Shown: piece by piece, positions 2,788 to 43,440 of the stretch
Layout: each line of letters begins with the position of its first letter
How positions within the stretch are numbered: position 1 is the first letter of the stretch
Source: Muricea muricata
Lineage: Eukaryota > Cnidaria > Anthozoa > Malacalcyonacea > Plexauridae
Direction of reading: 5' to 3'
Length of the DNA: 64,000 nucleotides
NCBI GenBank assembly: GCA_963855995.1
Contig: OY979718.1
Coordinates: 25,472,282 to 25,536,281, forward strand
Made by a program: the position numbers and the translations under genes
Notes under the pieces: model-generated
The model's input: only the letters and a program-made list of their open reading frames with translations
What the model was told of the DNA's origin: nothing
Database searches by the model: none

Positions 2788-3132
2788 AGCACATGGAAAT
2801 CACATGTGTTTCACATGTGAATCACATGTTGTCACATGTGATTTACATGCGAGTCACATGTGATTCACATATAGATTTATGATGCTTATTTCAAACCACA
2901 TCTGTTTCACATGTGATTCCTATGTGGCTCACATGTGGCCACATGTGATTAACATGTAATTAAAATGTGGTCACATGATTCACATGTAGATTTATGTTGT
3001 TTATTTTAAACCACGTGTGTTTCACATGTAGATTTATGTTGTTTATTCCAAACCAATGTGCTTCTCATGTCCCCATAAGTGATTCACATTTGGCCAGATG
3101 TGATTAACATGTTGTTCAAATGTGATAAACAC
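2788..3132. repeat. degenerate array of the palindrome ACATGT/CACATGTG
   Basis: About twenty copies of CACATGTG-like octamers are spaced 8-20 bp apart, alternating with TTTCACATGTGATT-type linkers. A longer unit (CACATGTAGATTTATGTTG) recurs around 2990 and 3020. The motif is self-complementary. A looser relative of the same pattern reappears at 26580-26765 and 59770-59970. Confidence 0.85.
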
Positions 3133-3179
3133 GTAAGGATATGATTATGTCCATAGTTTCAACCAGTTGCATTTAATTT

Positions 3180-3400
3180 GTTGCATTCTCATCTAATTCA
3201 AAATCACGAATTTAACCAATCATTGTTGGTCACAAGCAGTACATTGGTTACATGTTTAACCAGTCATAAATTGATAAATATGAGCAACAATTATAAATGT
3301 GTGAAATCCGCAACCAATTTTCAGTTGGTCAAGTCCGCATCCAATTATAAATTGGTCAAGTATGCAACTAATTATAGACGGATTAAGTTTACATCCTAAA
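3180..3400. repeat. tandem repeat with ~24-bp unit containing CCAATT..AATTGG
   Basis: Several diverged units of the form GCAACCAATTATAAATTGG followed by TCAAGT lie head to tail, clearest at 3305-3380. Each unit holds a small inverted repeat. The open frame across it is repetitive and not gene-like. Confidence 0.65.
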
Positions 3401-3885
3401 CAATTAATTATACAATGCAAAGTCATATTTACGATTATTGCAATACCTATGTATTGTATAAATTAATGTTTTGGGTTTAACACCTATTGAAGAAAAATTG
3501 AGACGTGGGCATGCTGACCTGCACTAATAGACCTCAGTCGTAGAATAGTCTATCAAAAAACGTTTAATTTGTGTTGAAATGTTTTATACAAGTCATATCA
3601 TGTGCAGATATAGGGCATTCTTGTCTTAACGAGTCAAAGAAATAGTTAAGGGGCAGGAAAAGAATCTAATTTCAAGCTCACAAAAGATAGTAACAAAATA
3701 TTTTGGACCCCAAAAGAATCGTCACTATGAAGTATACAGATTCCGACAAGCGACACAGGAACCGAACGACTTTAGATCAATTTCATACGTGTCCACATAC
3801 GCTAGCGCGAACTGTCCAGACGTGGAGCTTGAAACCGAGCAAAACGAAAGCGGTGAGAGATCGGTACACAAAAACAGCCAGACGG

Positions 3886-3916
3886 CAATAATAATAACAA
3901 TAATAATAATAATAGT
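3886..3916. repeat. (AAT)n microsatellite
   Basis: Imperfect AATAATAAT run with one AAC interruption. Confidence 0.8.
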
Positions 3917-4030
3917 ACATTTCTATAGCGTGATTTCCCAAAGCTCAATGACGCTTTACAAAATTTTAAGAAATTTTTAAATTGTTATATTTACATCAAT
4001 TAGATAAAATAGTTTAAAATGTAGTCTCAA

Positions 4031-4880
4031 TTACTTATAAGGTTTTTTAAATAAAAATGTCCTAAGTTTAGTTTTAAAAACCGATAGAGATTCACTATAA
4101 CGAACTATATCTGGTAGTTCATTCCAAAGTTTGCGCGCAGCATATGAAAATAATCCAATTTTATGGGAGTTATCGAGAGAAATCCGTTCATCGATGAACG
4201 CAGATTCAATATTTATTTGAGCGGCTGCAGCAAATCACAAATGTAACTTGGTGCAAGACCTTTTATGGCTGTGGATAGATAATCTCTTATTTTTGCTATA
4301 TTGCACCAATAGAAGAAAAATATATGCTTTGCAGATATTAGTCACGTGTTGATCAAGAGACATATGTCTGTCGAATATTACATCAATGTTACTATGTAAC
4401 TGTTTCAGGTGGTTGGATCTTGAAATTGGATACATCTGTATGGTCTATAGGAGGACAAGGGCGGTAGCGTATTAACATTATTAATTGTTATTATTAACAA
4501 TTCCGTCTTGTCTCCATTTAGCTTTAGTTTATCGCTAACCATCAATGAATCCATCTCTGTAACTCATGTTCCCATTCGCACAAGCGCATCCGGTTTTTCA
4601 TGTGTAGTTGGCTCAAAAGCTAAGTATATCAGTTGAGAATCATCAGCACAGAAGTGAAAATCGAGCTCATAACGTCTAATAATATCCCTAATGGGCGAGG
4701 TGTACAGCAAGTATAAAATGGGGCCCAAAACTGATCCTTGCGGGACTCCCCAATTTAGATCTTTAGACATTGACCATCAATCATCCCAGTTTTCGTCCTA
4801 TTTTGAAGGTAAGATCGAAATCACTTTAAAACTTTGTCTTTGGTTCCAAACAGTTTTGTCGTAATTGCGGCAGAGATGGA
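4031..4880 (-). pseudogene. LINE (non-LTR) reverse transcriptase, 3' end, degraded
   Basis: On the minus strand three broken frames give successive parts of a CR1/L2-style ORF2. They are: a FRSYLQNRT segment near 4830; the box GVPQGSVLGPILY; the catalytic box as FHFCADDSQLIY (family norm YADD) at 4630-4740; KLKLNGDKTELLI near 4510; and NIDVIFDRHMSLDQHV near 4370. The C-terminal GLAPSYICDLLQPLK and RKLWNELPDIVRYSES segments end at a stop at 4031. In-frame stops and frame changes show it is dead. The element's 5' part is not in place. The clade is inferred from motif wording only. Confidence 0.87.
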
Positions 4881-7800
4881 AAATTTAACCATTTTGCTAG
4901 TTTGTCGTGGAAAATCACAATATAACGAAAACCTTTAAGCCAATCAAGATTTTTCTTGATCGTTGTCAAAACAAAGCTGCAAAACGTACAAGTCCTGTTA
5001 CGAAGATAGAACGTGACTCGAACAGCTTCGGACGAAAACTATTGACACGTGATGACAAGTAACAAAGCGCTAAATTCAATGTAAAGGTTTAAGAACACTC
5101 GTTTCGGTATTGTAGATACGGCTTACGGGTGCGACAATTAAAGGGGCACTATGATGAACAATCTTTTATCTTGGGTCGATCGCAATCAAACGTAACATCA
5201 AAATAAACGGACGTGAGTACACGTTTTTAGTTATTCAATATCTTGTCTCGTTCTCCAAATATTCACTGTTTTAAAACATGCAAATAGTTGGTGATGTTGG
5301 ATCATAGGAAACCACATATATCTTAGAAACTAACTAGGGATCCAAGGATAGTGCAAAGTTTCTGAAAAGACTTACACACTTAAACTCGAAAAACTAAGAA
5401 AAATTTAATGATAGCTTTGGAAATAAAATGTTAAAATGATGTGGTCTAAAAGCGTTTTGTTTACGTGGGACGTTTTTAGACACTCTGATAATTTTATAAT
5501 TTTCATGTTTAGCGAGCATATTCGGTTTCACGTTTGCTGAATCTCTGACCTCTGACCTTAGACTCATATAAACAAAACGGAATGAACGCGCAATTAATAT
5601 TGAACGTGAACTAAGATTGCAAACATACAAACTGTGCGCTCTTCTGTGTGTTAATAAAAAACTGTCACAATATTAGGCCAATATCTTTACTTAGTATACT
5701 TATGTACGGTTTACTTTAGGTCTACTAGTATTATTGGAAATTTTATGTACACAATCATCAGTCATCACATCACAACCTTGCAGAAACTGATCTCGCACGC
5801 ACGCAACATTATCAAATATGCCGATTTCGCTTTATCTCGCTTGTTTTTCATCATTTTTTGATGAAGCCTGGCCGAAATGTAGAACAAAACTCCTGCAATT
5901 CATGTGGTGTATATTTAGGAATATAAGACGTAGAATAGCGAAAATATTGCGGTGTATTTATTGCTATGTATTCAAACTATAGCTCATATCTCTTGTTAGC
6001 CATTTATATTCATACCATATAGGTCAACTTATGCTGTCCATTTGAGCTCGTTTTAAGGCGAAAAATCGCTCTTTATGCATAATAAACGAAAGCATAATAG
6101 TCTGAAGATTAAAAAATCTTGTCCTGCCAGTTAAAATGGTGCTTTTAAGCCGTGGAAATACATGTTTAACTCATGTTTATTATCCCACTCCTAGACCTCT
6201 GCATAGCAACGGAAGCGGGCGCTACGCAATATACACGTGCTTAGTTGAATATTTTAAATTCCGGGGGAGTTTGAGAGCACTGTATATACATGTCTGCAAT
6301 AAAATTACTACGCTCATTAGTTGCCATATGGCTCATTTACCTATCTTTTTCATTTTTATGAATAACAGCACAAAATGGTTTATAAATAATACTTATAATT
6401 TTAACTAAAACATTGCAATAGTAACATTCAAGTAATCAGGTGGCATATTCAAAATTTGCACCACCCCCCGGAGTTTACACTATGACTGACTGACTGACTG
6501 ACTGACTGACTGACTGCCTGACTGATTTGAATTTTCGCCACTCATCACAATACTGCAAAGTTTCTTTGAAACTTTGCACTAAAAATGAGAAGCTATTCAA
6601 ACTTTACAATAACGGAATGTTGCAATTGTATAAACACGCAAAAGTTGCGCAAATTCTGCCGGCTTTTTAGTAATACTGCCGGTTTGTTTAGTAAGTCTAA
6701 TTTTCAATGCGTGAGAAGATGAAGTCAGACATTAGGTTCATTTTACTGCCGTTAAAAGGTGAATATCTCGAAAACAAGACAAGACGTTAAGAAACTGAAA
6801 GCGTCTTGAAGGTGCAGATTCAAGTTCTGTCTGATTGAAATTAAAAGTAAACAAACAATTTCATCATAGTGCATAAATACAACATATGCTCAAATGAAAG
6901 GCCCCAAACTTAAACCAAGAAAGGCATTCGCGTATACCGGCAGAAAAAAAACATCAAAGAAGCATTCAATGACTTGACGAAAGCCTTACTATCGGCACAG
7001 TAAAGAGACATATTTTACGGCTGACGCTAGTCCCAACGTGGGAATGAATGATCAGAAATTCGTACGCAGCACTATATGCTAGTTGAACCTTTGCAGATGT
7101 GGACAGGAGATATTCCCAGGCAGAAAAAAAAGGAGCACTCGCAATGTATTGGGGAGTAGAGCAGTTCCACTTGTATCTCTATAGCAATCAACTTAACTGA
7201 TCATAAACCTCTGCAAGTAATCTATGGCAAATTCATAACTTTGCTTTTAAATTACACGTCTTTACACTGTTATCCATGGTAAATATAGCATGCTTTGTAA
7301 CATTTGTAACAATGCTAAAATGTTACAATCTTGCAACTCAGCATTAGAGATTGATGCCTGCCGTTTTACAGTGTTACATACTGTTGCAGAATGTCACACC
7401 TTGGGTTTATTACATTTAAACAGTGAAAAATCAAGCTATAGGCAATTCCAACGAACAATTCGAACGCACTGTTTAACTTTCATAACCAGTTTTTATACTT
7501 TTCGGTAAATGCCTTATTTAGAACCTACTGGGCTGAGTAAACACCTCGTCAAACATAATCTGATGTGTATCGCGATCGCCTCTGGCGATTATAAATCCAT
7601 CAATACTATCACACGTTTGTAAGTTCAACGATTTTATTAGATATAACAGCACATTAAAATAAACAGCCTATTCTTGCTCCGTTTTTATAAAAAAAGGTGA
7701 CAAGATTCAATTTTAAGCAAATTACGAGCCTCTGCAATAAATATATTGCTTGAATCCATCTTGAAAATTCTCTAATTATAGTATCCAACAGCAAACAGCC

Positions 7801-21900: not shown

Positions 21901-23531
21901 CAGTAAGAACACGTGCTCGGTGAAGTTCACATATAGCAGCGTGTTGCATGTTGGTAAAATACCTTTTAACCAACATGCTTTGCGGCTCAGGCAAGATTGA
22001 AGCTGTACGAAATTAGTATGCTGCCTTGCTCGCTCGCTTAATGCTCGCTCGCTGCGGCAGCAAACATTTCTTTGTTTTTTTTTAATGTTGTTCGCATGCT
22101 TTGTTGTTTCAATTGCTATGTTTCAATATGTATTAATTTTAGGTGTTCTGGATCAAAGATGTTATTTTCGAATTTTATTTAGTTTTGATTTGATTTGAAG
22201 TGGTTTGGGGGGGGGAATGTTCAACACTGATCACATATTTTGCCCTGGAGGGCAGGGGGAGGGGTGATAATCAAAGTTTTTAACATGCTGGGGGAATGTC
22301 CCCTCCCACACATGGGGTCCCCCTTCCATGGATAGCCGAAGAAATGTGCATTAGGAAATTTTATGGGGAACTCTATGTTATTAAACCCAGGATTAAGTAA
22401 ACAAGACTTTAAACAACTGCCCAGTTTATATTGGGGGGATTTGATATGAATTGATTTGTAAATGATTAGTGCAAACAATGAACCAGTTTGGGAAAACCGG
22501 GGAAGAGTAGCACAGCTCCGTTTCAGCTATTAGATCAACTCTTGATTTGATTCAACCAATAGTAGCAATTGATGTATATATTAATATTGTACTTTCTATT
22601 GTTATAGCAAAAAAATTTTACTGAATTACAAAATGATCAGCTTATAAATAGTTTCAGTTCTGTGATATGCCAAAACCATGAAAGCCGAAAGCTAGGAGTA
22701 CTAAGGACAAGCATTAAATAAGAAGATAGAACAACAAATATATAGATTATAGATATAGTACATGTGTTTCAGTGTTTGTATCAGTATCTACAAATATCTA
22801 CAATTTAATCAAACATACTTACGCTTCAAATTTATTCATAGTTTGCCTCAAACCTCAAAGGCTTTAGAGCCCAAAGAAATGTAAAAGTTGCCAAGGGTAT
22901 TAAAAAATAAACTTTAGACAATTTTCAAAAATTTTCACAAAAAAATAGACCGTTTCCACCAACTATTCAAAATTTCTTACATAATTTTCTGACCACTGAT
23001 CATGAAGTGGAAGCTAAAAACGCAACTGCACTCACTGAAGGCCAGAGGATGCAGCAATGATAATCGCCTATACGTCATTCTGTATGTCAAATAGTTGACC
23101 ATCCATAAATGTAGTCATTGTTTTTTATGTTTATCATGAAACAATGCAATCACGAAGTGAACTACTGTGTAGTCTAATCAATTTCCCTATGTTAACCGCT
23201 TAGCGGATCATATTTCATTTTACTATTTCATATGATTTCATTTACTATTTCCGGTAAGAATTTACCGGAAATTACCAAATTAGATATTGACCGCAAGAAG
23301 CGAAATTTAACATAATCACGAGACATTCAAGTGTTTATCGTCGGAGTGAGTGTGGTGGGATGCAGCTACGGACTTAATAGCTAATAGACCATTCCATTAA
23401 ACTTTATCAGCAAAGAAAGATTTGTCTTGACACAGCTTTGGATATTTCAATAATTTAGGTACCTTGGTGCTGCCTTGTTAATATACTGCTTGTGCACATT
23501 GCCAGTAAAGTACTTGTTTTATGCATTGGGT
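18991..23531. other. gene-free stretch upstream of the S28 peptidase
   Basis: No gene was recognised over 4.5 kb. Two related segments in opposite orientation each encode a short FGYP.KG-like peptide: about 21076-21312 on plus and 22221-22478 on minus. They are probably two copies of one repeat. A (CTCGCTCG)-rich motif sits near 22030. The last few hundred bases should hold the S28 promoter, but no TATA or initiator is convincing. Confidence 0.4.
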
Positions 23532-31774
<8,243 letters not shown>

Positions 31775-34079: not shown

Positions 34080-35642
34080 TTAAAGTATCGTGCAATTTCT
34101 TACTTCGTATTGTCCGTCAGTTGTTTCACTTGCTTGAAACACTGAGAGAAGGACTGGGCTAAAGTATGACACTATCGCTATGACAAGGATGCCGTTTGCT
34201 AACACGTGACGTCTCCAGTATCTTTTCCAAACACGAGAAATCGGTGTGTTGTAGCAACGAATTTCCACAAAATTTGAAAGGCAATTGAAAACGAAATCGA
34301 TTCCTACTGCAATTGCAAGTTTTTTTAAGGAATCATAAACGAAAGAGGATATTGCCACGTCGAAATTTTGTACATGATAAAGCAGGTAGTATCCTTGGCC
34401 CAAGACAAGTGTACCTAAATCAAAAAGCGTGTCTTGAATATCCAAGTCAGCTTTTAGGCGTCTGTCATGTGGTTTGTTGCAAGACATTACTTCAAGTCTT
34501 CGACAGCAAGCAGTTCGTTTCAGAAGAGAAATAAATTTTCGCCAGAGACTCATCCGTATTCGATACGTTGCCTTCTTCAAAACCTTCAACACACCAGAAA
34601 GCAGGGATAGCCCAATGAAAAGCCAAATATTCTTAAAATCTGCCTGCATGATGCGAAATAGGAATACACTAACACCTCGGAAGCCATATACCAGGACAAA
34701 ACTCCTACCAGGATGTATAATTTCGGAACTTCGCCTCAATGCAATGTGATTACAGATTACTGTCGGGATGAATGTAAGTGCCGGCGCAAGCGCGGCCGCT
34801 AAGAATTTTTTATTTCGCTGCTTGATGCTATTGAAATAAGATATAATTGCGTATCGATAAGTTAATGCCATGAAATAAGAAAATAGGAACACAATCGAAA
34901 TCAGAGCAAAAATATGACTGTTCGAATACGCCACCGGATGGCAACTTGTTCGAATCTTTCGGAAGGCAGCAATGCAACAGCATATCGTGCCAACAAGGTA
35001 AAGAACATTTGCTGGGTATCCGTAGTACACGTGTCTACTGTAAAGCCCATATGCCTGCAAAAATAAATAATAAATTACGATTGCTTCGCCGAAGATAAGT
35101 GAGATATAAAAAGTAGACAAAAACTTCCGTTTGAACTTTTCCCATCCAAACAGAACAACAATCGTCAGTGGAAACCAAAGACTCGTAATCACCCCTTTGG
35201 CACTTTCACCGATGACGCGAAGTCGCTTTGCAGACAACGATAAAGTGCTATACTGCCATCCTATACAAACGTCAGTCGTGTACAAATCCAAATAAAGAAA
35301 TGCAATTGCGATAGCCGACACCGAAAGCATTGCTAGTGTCATTCCTAGTGTTGTCCTTAGACTTTTCCACATTGAGCTACGATTTGGTCCCCGTCCAGTC
35401 GAACAAAGCCATTTATTAGCTCTTGATCGTCTATCGTCCAACAGAGAATGGAACTCCTGGTTCCTTAAAAGGTTCTCATCGTACTCTTTGTGAATATATG
35501 GTAGCCATTTATCAGGTCCACTAGATCCTTCTTCCGTGTCACTCATTTCTCGAATTTCTTCTGGAAAAGATACGCGTGGTCTTTCGCTCATGAAGAGCGA
35601 AAATAATGACAAAAACATACCAGCTATTTCTTCCAGCATCAT
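34080..35642 (-). CDS. multipass membrane protein, 520 aa, single exon, family not recognised
   Basis: An uninterrupted 520-codon frame with strong protein-like composition. The N-terminal ~95 residues are hydrophilic and acidic (SDTEEGSSGPDK near 34-45). Hydrophobic segments lie at about 98-118, 151-166, 174-198, 209-227, 243-266, 280-300, 338-355, 408-424, 440-458 and 480-502, giving roughly eight to ten membrane spans. Basic loops follow several spans (KFKRKF, KKATYRIR, KRYWRRH). A short Cys-rich motif TACCRRLEVMSC is near 377-388. It could be a transporter, a scramblase-like protein or an orphan receptor-like protein; I cannot choose. The first Met pair starts a moderately hydrophobic stretch, and Met at residue 18 is an alternative start. 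Absence of introns in an intron-rich region suggests a retrocopy or an intronless lineage-specific family. Confidence 0.85.
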   Translation of the reverse strand: MMLEEIAGMFLSLFSLFMSERPRVSFPEEIREMSDTEEGSSGPDKWLPYIHKEYDENLLRNQEFHSLLDDRRSRANKWLCSTGRGPNRSSMWKSLRTTLGMTLAMLSVSAIAIAFLYLDLYTTDVCIGWQYSTLSLSAKRLRVIGESAKGVITSLWFPLTIVVLFGWEKFKRKFLSTFYISLIFGEAIVIYYLFLQAYGLYSRHVYYGYPANVLYLVGTICCCIAAFRKIRTSCHPVAYSNSHIFALISIVFLFSYFMALTYRYAIISYFNSIKQRNKKFLAAALAPALTFIPTVICNHIALRRSSEIIHPGRSFVLVYGFRGVSVFLFRIMQADFKNIWLFIGLSLLSGVLKVLKKATYRIRMSLWRKFISLLKRTACCRRLEVMSCNKPHDRRLKADLDIQDTLFDLGTLVLGQGYYLLYHVQNFDVAISSFVYDSLKKLAIAVGIDFVFNCLSNFVEIRCYNTPISRVWKRYWRRHVLANGILVIAIVSYFSPVLLSVFQASETTDGQYEVRNCTIL

Positions 35643-36656: not shown

Positions 36657-36665
36657 TTTCTTTTC
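36657..36665. repeat. 9-bp target-site duplication, left side of element A
   Basis: TTTCTTTTC, repeated exactly at 40331-40339. Confidence 0.92.
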
Positions 36666-36942
36666 GGCATACTGCATAACCCGGACTCGGACCCGGACTC
36701 GGACCCGGACTCGGACTCGGACCCGGACTCATGAAAAAATTCGTTACAAAAAGAATTTGTAGTTGCAGGGAAATATTTTTTAAGAATTATTATGGTGTTA
36801 CAAACACAGTTTTCCAGCCAATTTGCAACCAATTTGTAAAAATCTATAATCTATAATCTTATATGTTCCTGATTGTTTTAGGCTCAACATGAAGCTTGGA
36901 TCTGACTATATAGCATTAAAGCCTTTCATACAAGATCTTCCA
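36666..36942. repeat. element A left TIR with hexamer array
   Basis: GGCATACTGCATAACCC, then about nine GGACTC/GGACCC hexamers to 36731, then sequence starting ATGAAAAAATTCGTTAC that is mirrored at 39240-39440 and 40060-40265. Chance reading frames through it encode Gly-Ser-Glu repeats. Confidence 0.9.
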
Positions 36943-37020
36943 TTAAAAATTAACAAAATGTTTACCAGGATAAACGAACGTGCCAGTGCAAAGAAAGTAT
37001 TATTTACAATATATGAACTA

Positions 37021-38898
37021 CTAAAAGCTAAGGTTAAGTTTCCTCTTCAGTTCCCTCTTGTGCGATTCTTTTACAAAGGGTTTTAAATCAGTTGGAATTT
37101 GTACCAATCCGGGCACGAAAAATGCATTTTTAACAGCAACGCAGTTCGGATTGACATGAAAATATACGTTAGACAGCTCGCTCGAGATGACTTTTTCTCC
37201 GTTTTTCCAATATTCTCTCCTTGCTCTGCCGACAATTACCAAATCTTCAGGTTCACGTGGTATGGATTGGTTTGGTTTCAGCGGTTGTCTACAGCCGTAA
37301 CAGGTGGATATCTTTGGGTCCAAAAACCGCAGATTTCCAATCAAAAATGTACCGAATGCTGGCAAGGGCCTGTCTGGCTTTGGAGGGCTGTTGTCAGAGG
37401 GCTGTTTTGGAGGACTGCTGTTTGCAAATCGACTAATGACTCTCTCGCTTGGTACTGCTTTGGAGGATTTGTTTGCCTTTCCTTTTCTGACTTCTGTTGA
37501 TTTAGCTTTCTTTCCACTTGTCGAAGGCAAACCAACGTTGGACAGTCCTACAGATATTCAAATTAAGAGGTAGATAAACAAACAAGCAAGCAAACAAGAA
37601 ACAAAACAAAACGGTATGTACCTGTTAAGTTTGTCCCACGTTTTCCCTTGCGATGCCACTTTACAAAGTTATTAAGCGTTCCGTTTTGCTCAGCGACAAC
37701 AATAGAATGAGCACAAATGCTGTATGCTTGATAGTTTGGACATCCTTTATCGCACTCCACTCGACCATTCGTAAAAACCTTTACTGTGTGGGGTGTTCTG
37801 GGGTTGGAGTTGCTCGCCACCATCCATAAACCTTCAGCGCCATCAACTTTCCAAAGTTTTTCTGTTAGGGTCTTTGCCTTGGAAAACGCTGACTCCAGAA
37901 TTTGAAATGGTACACTGATGATACCTGAAGTGAAAAAAAAGATCAAGCTTCGTGTATTTTTATCCAATCTAGATTAATAAGAATGACTATTTAACAGTCA
38001 TTAATTGTTCTTGAACTAGTTGCGGTTTGGTTAGAAAAATATTTTTTTAACTGATCAAAATCACAATTATTACGTCCCTTTATTTTGGCAATCACTGCAC
38101 AGTTAATGCAATTCTTTGAACATAATGTTTGAAATAGAAAGAGAAATTATTTTTAGAAAAAATCCCTTGAAAATACAAAGTAAGACGTCTGAATTGGAAC
38201 CCAAAATAAATAGGCATGTAGAATAATAAAATGAAATAAAAGTGCAAACTTCTCGCAACCCGTAGATCACAGTTTATACCTGTTTCACTTGCTTCAATGG
38301 AAAAAGATGAATTTCTGGATGCATTCGTTGTAGTTTCCGTTCTTGGCTTGTGGGCGTCAGAAACTGAAGCGTGTAATTTTATCGCCTATCGCTAGGGGTG
38401 AATATTAAAGCTACATACCTGAACATGCCTTTAGATGAAAACACGGAATAAAGATTGTGTCAACCTCATTTACGTTGCACAAAAAACATTTTTTCTCCAC
38501 GGGATATTTTACTCTTGCGACAACCTTTTCCTAGAGAAAACAAATTTTGAATCATATCATCGCAGGTTACGATTTTTACGATTGCCGAACAATTAAGTCA
38601 TATAGCACAGGAAAGTTAAAATAGCTTAAAAAAATACAAAGCAAAGTAGCGCACTAACCTGGCAAGTAGGGCAGCTGCCCAGTTTATTGCTGCATCCATA
38701 GCAAACAATGTTGTGTTTACATGGGTAAAATAGCGCATTTGCGCGTTCTTTTTTACAAGTGAGGCAGTGAGCCATACAAACACGAAATACTTTTATAGAT
38801 TTTGTAACAAACGCATCGCTTGAAAGCTTGTATAATCTTCTGTGGATGATCGCACGTATTGCAATAAATCCTTTGGACTTTGGAGTCTTGCAATACAT
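37021..38898 (-). CDS. element A RING / half-RING / SWIM zinc-finger protein, five exons
   Basis: The exons on minus are 38659-38898, 38419-38530, 38280-38363, 37622-37924 and 37021-37547, all GT-AG and phase-consistent, giving 421 aa. Residues ~46-80 form a complete RING, C-x2-C-x11-C-x-H-x3-C-x2-C-x6-C-x2-C (CLTC, PCKHNIVCYGC, CPTC). Exon 2 repeats its first half only (CFLC, then PCFHLKAC). Exon 3 is a Ser/Thr-rich linker of 28 codons that could be skipped in frame. Exon 4 has a SWIM-type finger, C-x3-C-x8-C-x-H (CDKGC..CAH). Exon 5 has a basic linker, then CYGC and FHVNPNC, a possible C2HC knuckle. RING suggests ubiquitin-ligase activity; SWIM suggests DNA or protein binding. SWIM plus this tail resembles C-termini of MULE-like transposases that I associate with cnidarian genomes. 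One residue differs from the copy in element B (Asn versus Lys in GTL.NFV). Confidence 0.82.
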
Positions 38899-39507
38899 AA
38901 AAGCGCCGCCTAAAGCTTGTCAAGGTGTTGTGTTTCAACATATGGTCGGTTAAAGTTTTTGTATCGCTAATATATTTCCTGTGCGAAAATTGGGCGAAAT
39001 TCGGAACCTTATATATAATGCGTAATCATCAGATTCCAGATAATGACAAAATAAGGTCGAAACGTTGAATCAATAAAAATGTTGTCGTTTTTCGTACTTA
39101 CAGTAGTTGTGTATAATGCGTACGCTTGTCAAAGTATTGTGGTCCAAGAAAATAGCGCATGATGCCGGCAAAATGATATAATGCGAAAATTATGCGTAAG
39201 TGCAGAACTTGCCTTCAACTAGCTTAAGAAGAAGATCTTGTATGAAAGGCTTTAATATTTACATGCTATATAGTCAGATCCAAGCTTAATGTTGAGTCTA
39301 AAACAATCAGGAACATATAAGCCATATAGATTTTTAAAAATTGGTTGCAAATTGGCTGGAAAACTGTGTCACAAACACCATAATAATTCTTAAAAAATAT
39401 TTCCTTGCAACTACAAATTCTTTTTGTAACGAATTTTTTCACGAGTCCGGGTCCGAGTCCGAGTCCGAGTCCGGGTCCGGGTCCGAGTCCGGGTTATGCA
39501 GTATGCC
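38685..39507. repeat. 823-bp tandem duplication in element A, unit 1
   Basis: Starts TATTGCTGCATCCATAGC within the RING exon, runs through the gene's upstream region and ends with a complete copy of the element terminus (GTTATGCAGTATGCC). I saw no difference from unit 2 (39508-40330). Confidence 0.93.
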
Positions 39508-39721
39508 TATTGCTGCATCCATAGCAAACAATGTTGTGTTTACATGGGTAAAATAGCGCATTTGCGCGTTCTTTTTTACAAGTGAGGCAGTGAGCCATAC
39601 AAACACGAAATACTTTTATAGATTTTGTAACAAACGCATCGCTTGAAAGCTTGTATAATCTTCTGTGGATGATCGCACGTATTGCAATAAATCCTTTGGA
39701 CTTTGGAGTCTTGCAATACAT
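39508..39721 (-). pseudogene. truncated second RING exon from the tandem duplication
   Basis: A repeat of the RING exon that starts at the same Met but runs into the duplicated terminus after CYGCSN. It therefore lacks the last CPTC pair and the splice donor, and cannot encode a complete RING. Confidence 0.88.
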
Positions 39722-40330
39722 AAAAGCGCCGCCTAAAGCTTGTCAAGGTGTTGTGTTTCAACATATGGTCGGTTAAAGTTTTTGTATCGCTAATATATTT
39801 CCTGTGCGAAAATTGGGCGAAATTCGGAACCTTATATATAATGCGTAATCATCAGATTCCAGATAATGACAAAATAAGGTCGAAACGTTGAATCAATAAA
39901 AATGTTGTCGTTTTTCGTACTTACAGTAGTTGTGTATAATGCGTACGCTTGTCAAAGTATTGTGGTCCAAGAAAATAGCGCATGATGCCGGCAAAATGAT
40001 ATAATGCGAAAATTATGCGTAAGTGCAGAACTTGCCTTCAACTAGCTTAAGAAGAAGATCTTGTATGAAAGGCTTTAATATTTACATGCTATATAGTCAG
40101 ATCCAAGCTTAATGTTGAGTCTAAAACAATCAGGAACATATAAGCCATATAGATTTTTAAAAATTGGTTGCAAATTGGCTGGAAAACTGTGTCACAAACA
40201 CCATAATAATTCTTAAAAAATATTTCCTTGCAACTACAAATTCTTTTTGTAACGAATTTTTTCACGAGTCCGGGTCCGAGTCCGAGTCCGAGTCCGGGTC
40301 CGGGTCCGAGTCCGGGTTATGCAGTATGCC
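39508..40330. repeat. 823-bp tandem duplication in element A, unit 2
   Basis: Second unit, ending at the true right terminus of element A next to the TTTCTTTTC duplication. Confidence 0.93.
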
Positions 40331-40339
40331 TTTCTTTTC
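40331..40339. repeat. 9-bp target-site duplication, right side of element A
   Basis: TTTCTTTTC, identical to 36657-36665. Confidence 0.92.
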
Positions 40340-40348
40340 TTGTTTTTT

Positions 40349-40357
40349 TATTTTTAC
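40349..40357. repeat. 9-bp target-site duplication, left side of element B
   Basis: TATTTTTAC, repeated exactly at 43188-43196. Confidence 0.92.
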
Positions 40358-40966
40358 GGCATACTGCATAACCCGGACTCGGACCCGGACCCGGACTCGG
40401 ACTCGGACCCGGACTCGGACTCGTGAAAAAATTCGTTACAAAAAGAATTTGTAGTTGCAAGGAAATATTTTTTAAGAATTATTATGGTGTTTGTGACACA
40501 GTTTTCCAGCCAATTTGCAACCAATTTTTAAAAATCTATATGGCTTATATGTTCCTGATTGTTTTAGACTCAACATTAAGCTTGGATCTGACTATATAGC
40601 ATGTAAATATTAAAGCCTTTCATACAAGATCTTCTTCTTAAGCTAGTTGAAGGCAAGTTCTGCACTTACGCATAATTTTCGCATTATATCATTTTGCCGG
40701 CATCATGCGCTATTTTCTTGGACCACAATACTTTGACAAGCGTACGCATTATACACAACTACTGTAAGTACGAAAAACGACAACATTTTTATTGATTCAA
40801 CGTTTCGACCTTATTTTGTCATTATCTGGAATCTGATGATTACGCATTATATATAAGGTTCCGAATTTCGCCCAATTTTCGCACAGGAAATATATTAGCG
40901 ATACAAAAACTTTAACCGACCATATGTTGAAACACAACACCTTGACAAGCTTTAGGCGGCGCTTTT

Positions 40967-42844
40967 ATGTATTGCAAGACTCCAAAGTCCAAAGGATTTA
41001 TTGCAATACGTGCGATCATCCACAGAAGATTATACAAGCTTTCAAGCGATGCGTTTGTTACAAAATCTATAAAAGTATTTCGTGTTTGTATGGCTCACTG
41101 CCTCACTTGTAAAAAAGAACGCGCAAATGCGCTATTTTACCCATGTAAACACAACATTGTTTGCTATGGATGCAGCAATAAACTGGGCAGCTGCCCTACT
41201 TGCCAGGTTAGTGCGCTACTTTGCTTTGTATTTTTTTAAGCTATTTTAACTTTCCTGTGCTATATGACTTAATTGTTCGGCAATCGTAAAAATCGTAACC
41301 TGCGATGATATGATTCAAAATTTGTTTTCTCTAGGAAAAGGTTGTCGCAAGAGTAAAATATCCCGTGGAGAAAAAATGTTTTTTGTGCAACGTAAATGAG
41401 GTTGACACAATCTTTATTCCGTGTTTTCATCTAAAGGCATGTTCAGGTATGTAGCTTTAATATTCACCCCTAGCGATAGGCGATAAAATTACACGCTTCA
41501 GTTTCTGACGCCCACAAGCCAAGAACGGAAACTACAACGAATGCATCCAGAAATTCATCTTTTTCCATTGAAGCAAGTGAAACAGGTATAAACTGTGATC
41601 TACGGGTTGCGAGAAGTTTGCACTTTTATTTCATTTTATTATTCTACATGCCTATTTATTTTGGGTTCCAATTCAGACGTCTTACTTTGTATTTTCAAGG
41701 GATTTTTTCTAAAAATAATTTCTCTTTCTATTTCAAACATTATGTTCAAAGAATTGCATTAACTGTGCAGTGATTGCCAAAATAAAGGGACGTAATAATT
41801 GTGATTTTGATCAGTTAAAAAAATATTTTTCTAACCAAACCGCAACTAGTTCAAGAACAATTAATGACTGTTAAATAGTCATTCTTATTAATCTAGATTG
41901 GATAAAAATACACGAAGCTTGATCTTTTTTTTCACTTCAGGTATCATCAGTGTACCATTTCAAATTCTGGAGTCAGCGTTTTCCAAGGCAAAGACCCTAA
42001 CAGAAAAACTTTGGAAAGTTGATGGCGCTGAAGGTTTATGGATGGTGGCGAGCAACTCCAACCCCAGAACACCCCACACAGTAAAGGTTTTTACGAATGG
42101 TCGAGTGGAGTGCGATAAAGGATGTCCAAACTATCAAGCATACAGCATTTGTGCTCATTCTATTGTTGTCGCTGAGCAAAACGGAACGCTTAAAAACTTT
42201 GTAAAGTGGCATCGCAAGGGAAAACGTGGGACAAACTTAACAGGTACATACCGTTTTGTTTTGTTTCTTGTTTGCTTGCTTGTTTGTTTATCTACCTCTT
42301 AATTTGAATATCTGTAGGACTGTCCAACGTTGGTTTGCCTTCGACAAGTGGAAAGAAAGCTAAATCAACAGAAGTCAGAAAAGGAAAGGCAAACAAATCC
42401 TCCAAAGCAGTACCAAGCGAGAGAGTCATTAGTCGATTTGCAAACAGCAGTCCTCCAAAACAGCCCTCTGACAACAGCCCTCCAAAGCCAGACAGGCCCT
42501 TGCCAGCATTCGGTACATTTTTGATTGGAAATCTGCGGTTTTTGGACCCAAAGATATCCACCTGTTACGGCTGTAGACAACCGCTGAAACCAAACCAATC
42601 CATACCACGTGAACCTGAAGATTTGGTAATTGTCGGCAGAGCAAGGAGAGAATATTGGAAAAACGGAGAAAAAGTCATCTCGAGCGAGCTGTCTAACGTA
42701 TATTTTCATGTCAATCCGAACTGCGTTGCTGTTAAAAATGCATTTTTCGTGCCCGGATTGGTACAAATTCCAACTGATTTAAAACCCTTTGTAAAAGAAT
42801 CGCACAAGAGGGAACTGAAGAGGAAACTTAACCTTAGCTTTTAG
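40967..42844 (+). CDS. element B RING / half-RING / SWIM zinc-finger protein, five exons
   Basis: The exons are 40967-41206, 41335-41446, 41502-41585, 41941-42243 and 42318-42844, giving 421 aa in one continuous reading. Without exon 3 the frame still holds (393 aa). Domains are as in the element A copy: RING in exon 1, a RING first half in exon 2, SWIM in exon 4, Lys/Ser/Pro-rich linker then CYGC and FHVNPNC in exon 5. The start is uncertain. Met at 40967 is the first in frame, while MAHCLTC further in (41096) would begin right at the RING. An overlapping frame from 40924 to 41112 ends inside exon 1. The upstream TIR lies about 350 bp away and may carry the promoter. Near-perfect identity to the element A gene shows recent spread. 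Confidence 0.84.
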
Positions 42845-43132
42845 TAGTTCATATATTGTAAATAATACTTTCTTTGCACTGGCACGTTCGTTTATCCTGG
42901 TAAACATTTTGTTAATTTTTAATGGAAGATCTTGTATGAAAGGCTTTAATGCTATATAGTCAGATCCAAGCTTCATGTTGAGCCTAAAACAATCAGGAAC
43001 ATATAAGATTATAGATTATAGATTTTTACAAATTGGTTGCAAATTGGCTGGAAAACTGTGTTTGTAACACCATAATAATTCTTAAAAAATATTTCCCTGC
43101 AACTACAAATTCTTTTTGTAACGAATTTTTTC

Positions 43133-43187
43133 ATGAGTCCGGGTCCGAGTCCGAGTCCGGGTCCGAGTCCGGGTTATGCAGTATGCC
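43133..43187. repeat. element B right terminus with hexamer array
   Basis: Hexamers of GAGTCC/GGGTCC type followed by GGGTTATGCAGTATGCC. It has fewer hexamers than the other ends, so array length varies between copies. Confidence 0.88.
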
Positions 43188-43196
43188 TATTTTTAC
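43188..43196. repeat. 9-bp target-site duplication, right side of element B
   Basis: TATTTTTAC. Its last base is the first base of the adjoining MITE, so element B landed on the MITE border. Confidence 0.9.
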
Positions 43197-43378
43197 AGCG
43201 CCTTTCGTAATTACGCGGCCACGACAAATTTGGCGCCAGTCTGAAACATACGTTTTGGCTGCCGTCAATCAAAATTACGATAACTATTAATATTATTGGC
43301 GATGATTGACGGCAGCTAAAACGCATGTTTCAGACTGGCGCCAAATTTGTCGTGGCCGCGTAATTACGAAAGGCGCTG
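43196..43378. mobile_element. MITE, 183 bp, TA duplication
   Basis: CAGCGCCTTTCGTAATTACG followed by CGGCCACGACAAATTTGGCG and more is mirrored almost perfectly at the right. Arms are about 75 bp and both ends are flanked by TA. This is the classic Tc1/mariner-type MITE layout. Confidence 0.9.
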
Positions 43379-43440
43379 TAATTGGATTCCGGATTCCTAC
43401 TGGTGGATTCTGAATTTTTATTGGTTGATTACGGATTCCT

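Follow-up and report, generated by a model that had tools for sequence, protein, structure and literature searches.

Two short Mutator-like elements of Muricea muricata and a predicted parent transposase with N-terminal tandem RING fingers

Two inverted copies of one element in the window

The DNA analysed here, hereafter the window, is a 64,000-nucleotide stretch of the cnidarian Muricea muricata (assembly GCA_963855995.1, contig OY979718.1, forward-strand positions 25,472,282 to 25,536,281), and it contains two closely related copies of a Mutator-like element (MULE), each with a short gene for a protein with RING and SWIM zinc fingers (Table 1). Both elements are very probably non-autonomous MULEs that arose by one internal deletion of an autonomous-type element, the transposase of which is arranged as tandem RING, MULE DDE, SWIM and Cys/His tail. 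An earlier note on the window had described a young MULE-type family whose copies here lack a DDE region, and this description stands.

Exact GGCATACTGCATAACCC termini occur five times, at 36666, 39491, 40314, 40358 and 43171, where they had been reported before, and a scan of the window allowing up to three mismatches gave five matches against a chance mean of 0.07. Element 1 is inverted relative to element 2, and 2827 of the 2830 aligned bases are identical (3 mismatches), with one 12-bp indel in addition. Terminal inverted repeats of about 275 bp, as previously noted and as long as is characteristic of MULEs, are present in both (1-277 versus 1-263 with 247 identities in element 2; 1-275 versus 1-277 with 256 identities in element 1). 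The 9-bp target duplications could likewise be confirmed, TATTTTTAC flanking element 2 and TTTCTTTTC bracketing an entire 3665-bp block with outer ends at 36666 and 40330. This block had been taken for a single element nearly identical to its 2830-bp neighbour; the near-identity and the length of 2830 bp hold, but the block consists of a 2842-bp copy, element 1, plus an exact 823-bp duplicate of its end. The inner junction between the two reads TATTGCTGC and matches the element's own internal sequence. The duplicate is likely the remnant of an outer copy that was invaded by another copy and then lost its left part; in the simplest reading, one copy would have inserted into the other, and recombination between the two would have removed the outer left portion.

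The inverted pair could, judging from its sequence, give a long hairpin RNA, since its arms (36691-39507 and 40358-43174, 2817 nt) have 3 mismatches, are 100% complementary after rounding and are separated by 850 nt, and a nested pair has arms of 823 nt and a spacer of 27 nt. Read-through of the pair might then silence the family in the manner of Mu killer, a partly duplicated, inverted locus for which a hairpin formed by read-through has been proposed (PMC3440606). We consider this improbable here. Local hopping alone yields such pairs, and elements 1 and 2 have two coding substitutions in common that are absent from the other four copies of their class (class A, see below), so that, given also how little they differ, one of them probably arose from its neighbour by local hopping.

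A predicted five-exon open model fits both copies, as had been proposed, although its product is of 380 and not 421 amino acids. The RING finger reported earlier is confirmed by Pfam, and in the window copies only RING1 has a full set of zinc ligands. Pfam did not call SWIM on the window protein. In an alignment of ten SWIM rows the C..C..C.H ligands are invariant (10/10), and the Pfam SWIM model matches weakly in four of them (best E 0.0083).

Table 1. Coordinates of the two elements, their predicted exons and their target duplications (positions in the window)
Feature	Positions	Strand	Remarks
Left 9-bp target duplication TTTCTTTTC	36657..36665	.	
Element 1	36666..39507	-	Complete 2842-bp class-A non-autonomous MULE, gene on - strand; exact termini
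Element 1 tail exon	37021..37547	-	
Element 1 SWIM exon	37622..37924	-	1 substitution versus element 2; mapped from element 2 coordinates
Element 1 "exon 3" (end of DDE exon)	38280..38363	-	
Element 1 exon 2 (part of RING2)	38419..38530	-	
Element 1 exon 1 (RING1)	38659..38775	-	
823-bp exact duplicate of element 1's own end	39508..40330	-	Identical to 38685-39507; directly abuts element 1
Right 9-bp target duplication TTTCTTTTC	40331..40339	.	
Left 9-bp target duplication TATTTTTAC	40349..40357	.	
Element 2	40358..43187	+	Complete 2830-bp class-A copy; exact termini
Element 2 exon 1, RING1 (complete C3HC4)	41090..41206	+	Pfam zf-C3HC4_3 3.3e-16; splice model
Element 2 exon 2, first five RING2 ligands	41335..41446	+	RING2 is completed by exon 3 in L010
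Deletion junction, GCTT common to both breakpoints	41495..41498	+	About 6.6 kb of L010 with most of the DDE exon absent
Element 2 "exon 3", end of parent DDE exon, 28 codons, after cryptic acceptor	41502..41585	+	Same sequence as end of L010 DDE exon
Element 2 SWIM exon	41941..42243	+	Ligands conserved; weak Pfam SWIM in 4/10 alignment rows
Element 2 Cys/His tail exon (transposase C-terminus)	42318..42844	+	
Right 9-bp target duplication TATTTTTAC	43188..43196	.	

A longer copy with the same termini holds a DDE exon

The genome searched (G000, 453 Mb) contains a copy of 9492 bp, L010 (G000:C3:24048936-24058427), with the same termini, a 9-bp duplication (GGCCAAAAC) and a DDE exon, which is missing from the window copies. 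The earlier note had suggested looking for an autonomous relative with a MULE DDE and the same termini, and had counted a family copy encoding a DDE between these ends against its own interpretation; L010, a copy of autonomous type, answers to both. Element 2 aligns to L010 over 17-1141 (97.4%) and 1132-2817 (99.4%), and about 6.6 kb of L010, from intron 2 to the end of the DDE exon, is absent from the window elements, the DDE exon lying inside. Both breakpoints of this deletion have the microhomology GCTT in common. Included in the missing stretch is an open exon in which an alignment places the motifs D, D, C..H and E, which we take to be those of the MULE type. The other long copy, L011+L012, has nothing corresponding to two parts of this missing stretch (L010 reverse-complement 1471-2398 and 2862-4915), and the original deletion may therefore have been shorter than 6.6 kb. 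An open reading frame (ORF) of 300 amino acids in intron 2 (L010:5222-6124) also falls where the other long copy has no counterpart; it has no Pfam match, and by eye it looks like a GIY-YIG/Penelope-type fragment. The junction of this deletion, which defines class A, occurs in six genomic copies, always as a perfect match although up to 3 mismatches were permitted, and the control gave 0.

The predicted parent gene

The predicted gene of L010 has 8 exons, with seven introns that are all GT-AG and consistent in phase, and encodes 1127 amino acids with no internal stop. Exon 1 carries RING1, exons 2 and 3 RING2, exons 4-5 a linker, exon 6 the DDE, exon 7 SWIM and exon 8 the tail. On the whole protein Pfam reports zf-C3HC4_3 in two stretches (1.4e-18) and MULE (0.0073), and on the N-terminal 135 residues its RING match reaches 1.4e-21. 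RING2 matches the XIAP RING with an E value of 1e-8, and RING1 matches the RINGs of MYLIP (3.9e-6), CGRRF1 (1.7e-4) and MEX3C (5.2e-4). What had been called a half-RING is indeed partial in the window copies, but it is the start of a second complete RING, the remaining exon of which has been deleted.

The MULE model is matched by 6 of the 10 rows of the DDE alignment (best 5.9e-05) and Transposase_mut by one of the 10; four of the rows stop short of the D1-D2 stretch. At least six loci that match the L010 DDE at 29-37% identity overlap PF10551 matches above the curated cut-off (C3 55.2 Mb; C8 8.3 Mb; C2 30.3 Mb; C1 29.4, 69.7 and 107.9 Mb). In two relatives, L058 (1155 amino acids) and L059 (971 amino acids), DDE, SWIM and tail lie within a single ORF, which bears out the earlier suggestion that SWIM plus tail is a transposase C-terminus. 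Two other ideas were discarded. Our initial one, a transposase of the SWIM-bearing KDZ/Zisupton type, was dropped because the DDE matched MULE models. ORFs homologous from residue 53 onward had looked like DDE-less RING-SWIM genes until the six loci L060-L065 were read: the ORFs of L060 and L063 start at the catalytic-E end of a DDE and those of L061, L062, L064 and L065 further downstream, and we read all six, on their sequence, as C-terminal parts of other MULE transposases.

Conservation of the predicted RING exons in a diverged relative

A diverged relative, L066, about 62% identical to L010 in the C-terminal exons, has the same order of RING1, RING2, DDE, SWIM and tail. Both L010 and L066 have two complete C3HC4 RINGs, with 16 of 16 zinc ligands kept. 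Over 95 codons of the RING exons the two differ with a dN (nonsynonymous rate) of 0.118 and a dS (synonymous rate) of 0.917, giving an omega of 0.13 (bootstrap 0.043-0.257, with saturated dS set to 0 in 9 of 1000 replicates); over 98 codons omega is 0.143. For RING2 alone dS is 2.27, near saturation, and omega is given for the RING only, dS between L010 and L066 being saturated for DDE, SWIM and tail. Since they are conserved between two subfamilies, the RING exons belong to the transposase. The claim that a RING had replaced the DDE region, a view that came from a single locus with deleted copies, therefore has to be abandoned: in the L010 and L066 models the transposase has the RING exons at its N-terminal end, and the DDE was lost by internal deletion.

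The same models bear on a further reading, in which a non-autonomous element of the Pack-MULE type took up a RING+SWIM gene from the host. The resemblance of RING2 to RINGs of inhibitor-of-apoptosis proteins (IAPs) such as XIAP lends it something, and the autonomous lineage may once have captured its RING from a host gene. RING, DDE, SWIM and tail, however, form one ordered gene model in L010 and keep that order in the diverged L066, and the short copies, being a deletion of this arrangement, already contradict a capture on their own part, which makes this reading very improbable for them.

We counted 39 RING loci after merging exons, leaving out nine class-B fragments, the 823-bp duplicate of the window and a small fragment at C1:80223590, and 64 DDE loci after merging neighbours among 76 matches. 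Four of the 39 listed RING loci have a DDE downstream on the same strand, at a distance of 4.4-7.0 kb. In one further pair within 15 kb, the fifth, RING and DDE are on opposite strands, and their proximity looks fortuitous. The RING loci for which no same-strand DDE is listed in this range, not all of which were read, are taken as deletion derivatives. Seven loci (C4:8183414, C4:9940319, C7:13089233, C9:11254344, C1:97194861, C1:97127895 and C3:28980624) carry RING exons 1-2 of the sister subfamily; their RING1 is 74-81% identical to that of L010, no DDE is listed within 15 kb of them, and they are probably another deletion family.

Copies of the family in the genome

Exact GGCATACTGCATAACCC-type termini number 67 in the genome (34 forward and 33 reverse; control 0), and a protein search gave 143 matches, so that a single-copy host gene merely surrounded by repeats, the other possibility that had been raised, is out. 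Elements with paired termini were read in 20 cases, 18 elsewhere in the genome and two in the window, leaving out unpaired termini. An exact duplication of 8-11 bp flanks 15 of the 20: ten of 9 bp, three of 10, one of 11 and one of 8. Near-identical copies with duplications imply, as far as sequence can tell, recent movement of the family.

Several internally deleted classes exist, among them a second one (class B, 1.4 kb). One class-B copy, L016 (G000:C2:14096337-14098984), has TGTTTCAAC on both sides of an inner copy, the right-hand one with an additional C, because of which it is not counted in the strict duplication test; it looks like a class-B copy inserted in another class-B copy, and would be a second self-insertion in the family. 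The 8662-bp pair L009 (G000:C1:80215980-80225041) was rejected as an autonomous candidate, as it contains a Pao-type retrotransposon with an open pol ORF of 1362 amino acids, by which this family member is broken.

The short gene changes as if neutral

We compared the six class-A copies to L010 and classified the changes from codon positions and translations. Fifteen coding positions are changed, four synonymously, ten by missense and one by nonsense (in L017). Under neutrality 22-25% of changes should be synonymous, and four or more would be seen with a probability of 0.43-0.55; under an omega of 0.14, four or fewer would have a probability of 0.0005. The changes therefore fit neutrality, although they are too few to rule out mild constraint, and the selection test that had been proposed for the short gene gave no signal of constraint. 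A maintained helper or suppressor is disfavoured by these neutral-like changes and by the stop in one of the six copies. As to the helper, suppressor or captured gene imagined earlier, the short copies thus offer no evidence of a maintained role, though one acting in trans could still exist.

The P-element derivative KP, internally deleted and with an open truncated frame, offers a model for such a role. By analogy, the truncated RING-SWIM-tail protein, with dimerisation and DNA-binding parts and no catalysis, would poison or ubiquitinate the full transposase. The splice phases hold the frame across the deletion, the frame is open in 5/6 class-A copies, and class B keeps a direct in-frame fusion of 95 amino acids in three of four translated copies (L013, L021 and L025; the frame of L016 has a stop). 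Repression in trans, moreover, need leave no trace of selection. The short copies are like KP in being internal deletion derivatives with an open truncated frame; unlike KP, they show no selection signal here, and the repressor role is hypothetical. With only four synonymous changes among the 15, RING2 destroyed and a class of only six copies, we regard a repressor as unlikely.

Weighing the origin by deletion

The origin of the window elements by internal deletion is argued for by the long copy having identical termini, by the deletion junction and the six copies that have it, by the open and phase-consistent model of L010, by RING exons that are kept in both subfamilies and by the neutral-like change of the short gene. 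Short copies would on this account be mobilised in trans by the transposase of long copies acting on the common terminal repeats, and the RING/SWIM protein that they can still encode would be a leftover.

Several observations weigh against it. Among the long copies read, L010 alone has a DDE that is open: stops interrupt the matches at C1:5156411, C2:11621906 and C12:8118247, and the DDE of L066 is split by extra sequence. On its own the L010 DDE falls below the Pfam curated cut-off for PF10551 (19 versus 27.6 bits; E 0.002), and the DDE profile gave nothing convincing against solved structures, its PDB sequence matches being discarded as evidence of membership with a best E of 0.083. Five of the 20 paired copies (L009, L016, L017, L021 and L025) are without an exact duplication, and for 35 of the 39 RING loci no same-strand DDE is listed within 15 kb. 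Finally, the DDE loci of more diverged subfamilies showed no RING nearby, and none was seen in the roughly 3 kb read upstream of the DDE in subfamily C16 (DDE 66%); the RING may for this reason be limited to one lineage.

Comparison with known systems

By its termini, duplications, repeats and parent DDE, all of them sequence characters, the family is a MULE family, and the window copies are its non-autonomous members. It shares with the MULE/MuDR superfamily duplications of 8-11 bp, the range given for MULEs in a survey (PMC6446971), as well as long terminal inverted repeats, a PF10551-type DDE and a putative SWIM-like C-terminal finger, a feature that many but not all MULEs have after the DDE, and it differs in the tandem RING at the N-terminus. 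Extra domains on MULEs have precedent in the table of that survey, which lists a C3HC4 RING in one Phytophthora MULE, 37_Pi, a PHD finger in Rehavkus and an "Ovarian Tumour Gene" motif in the cnidarian MuDR-6_HM, and gives no finger for the cnidarian Ghost sub-group (PMC6446971).

Like RAG1 and the RING-bearing Chapaev transposases, as described in a 2015 paper, the L010 protein combines a RING and a DDE core (PMC4411706). Those belong to another transposase superfamily, with one RING plus a Chapa domain where we find two RINGs; no Transib- or Chapaev-type core was found, the families listed for the DDE alignment being MULE and Transposase_mut among Pfam sequence models. The likeness is one of architecture, not descent. 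The 2015 paper states that a RING is not encoded by other known transposable elements (PMC4411706), which should not be taken at face value, because RINGs are listed elsewhere, in the survey table (PMC6446971) and in Osvaldo/Isis-like and Pao-type fly retrotransposons (PMC3630058).

With the RINGs of XIAP and cIAP the resemblance extends beyond the finger itself, RING2 of L010 aligning to XIAP without gaps over 53 residues, including a KQKI-type tail after the last cysteine. Unlike those proteins, L010 has no BIR domain listed by Pfam, and a ligase role is putative here. The RING pair of L010, with its IAP-like RING2, may serve dimerisation of the transposase, ubiquitin transfer or both, and so regulate the transposase itself, by analogy with what the RAG1 RING may do. 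A bolder proposal would have a MULE transposase acquire an IAP-type tandem RING as its own N-terminal ubiquitin-ligase/dimerisation module, convergently with RAG1, and its deletion derivatives still supply a RING-SWIM protein with a modulating effect on the parent; we hold it to be possible but doubtful.

A literature search found no description of a MULE with N-terminal tandem RINGs, but with its limited coverage of subscription papers and Repbase this is weak evidence of novelty, and the survey PMC6446971 was the sole paper found directly on the subject of cnidarian MULEs or of RING plus MULE. The mild novelty lies in the parent, whose Mutator-like transposase has two RINGs in tandem at the N-terminus. 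It would represent a lineage outside Transib/Chapaev with RINGs fused ahead of a DDE transposase, and it raises the question of whether cut-and-paste transposases have recurrently come under the control of RINGs, through ubiquitylation or dimerisation.

Other features of the window

A near-perfect foldback palindrome at 43193-43381 abuts the right end of element 2 (minimum free energy -154.8 kcal/mol, z -21.5); it is probably a miniature inverted-repeat transposable element, at the edge of which element 2 inserted. Just left of the elements, a frame open for 520 amino acids on the - strand (34080-35642) has no Pfam match and, by eye, is likely a host membrane-protein gene. An exon of a serine carboxypeptidase S28 gene at 23475-23936 (Pfam 2.2e-31) was the sole match among three window ORFs scanned, and a long TATA-type microsatellite at 30705-31085 reads as an ORF of 126 amino acids.

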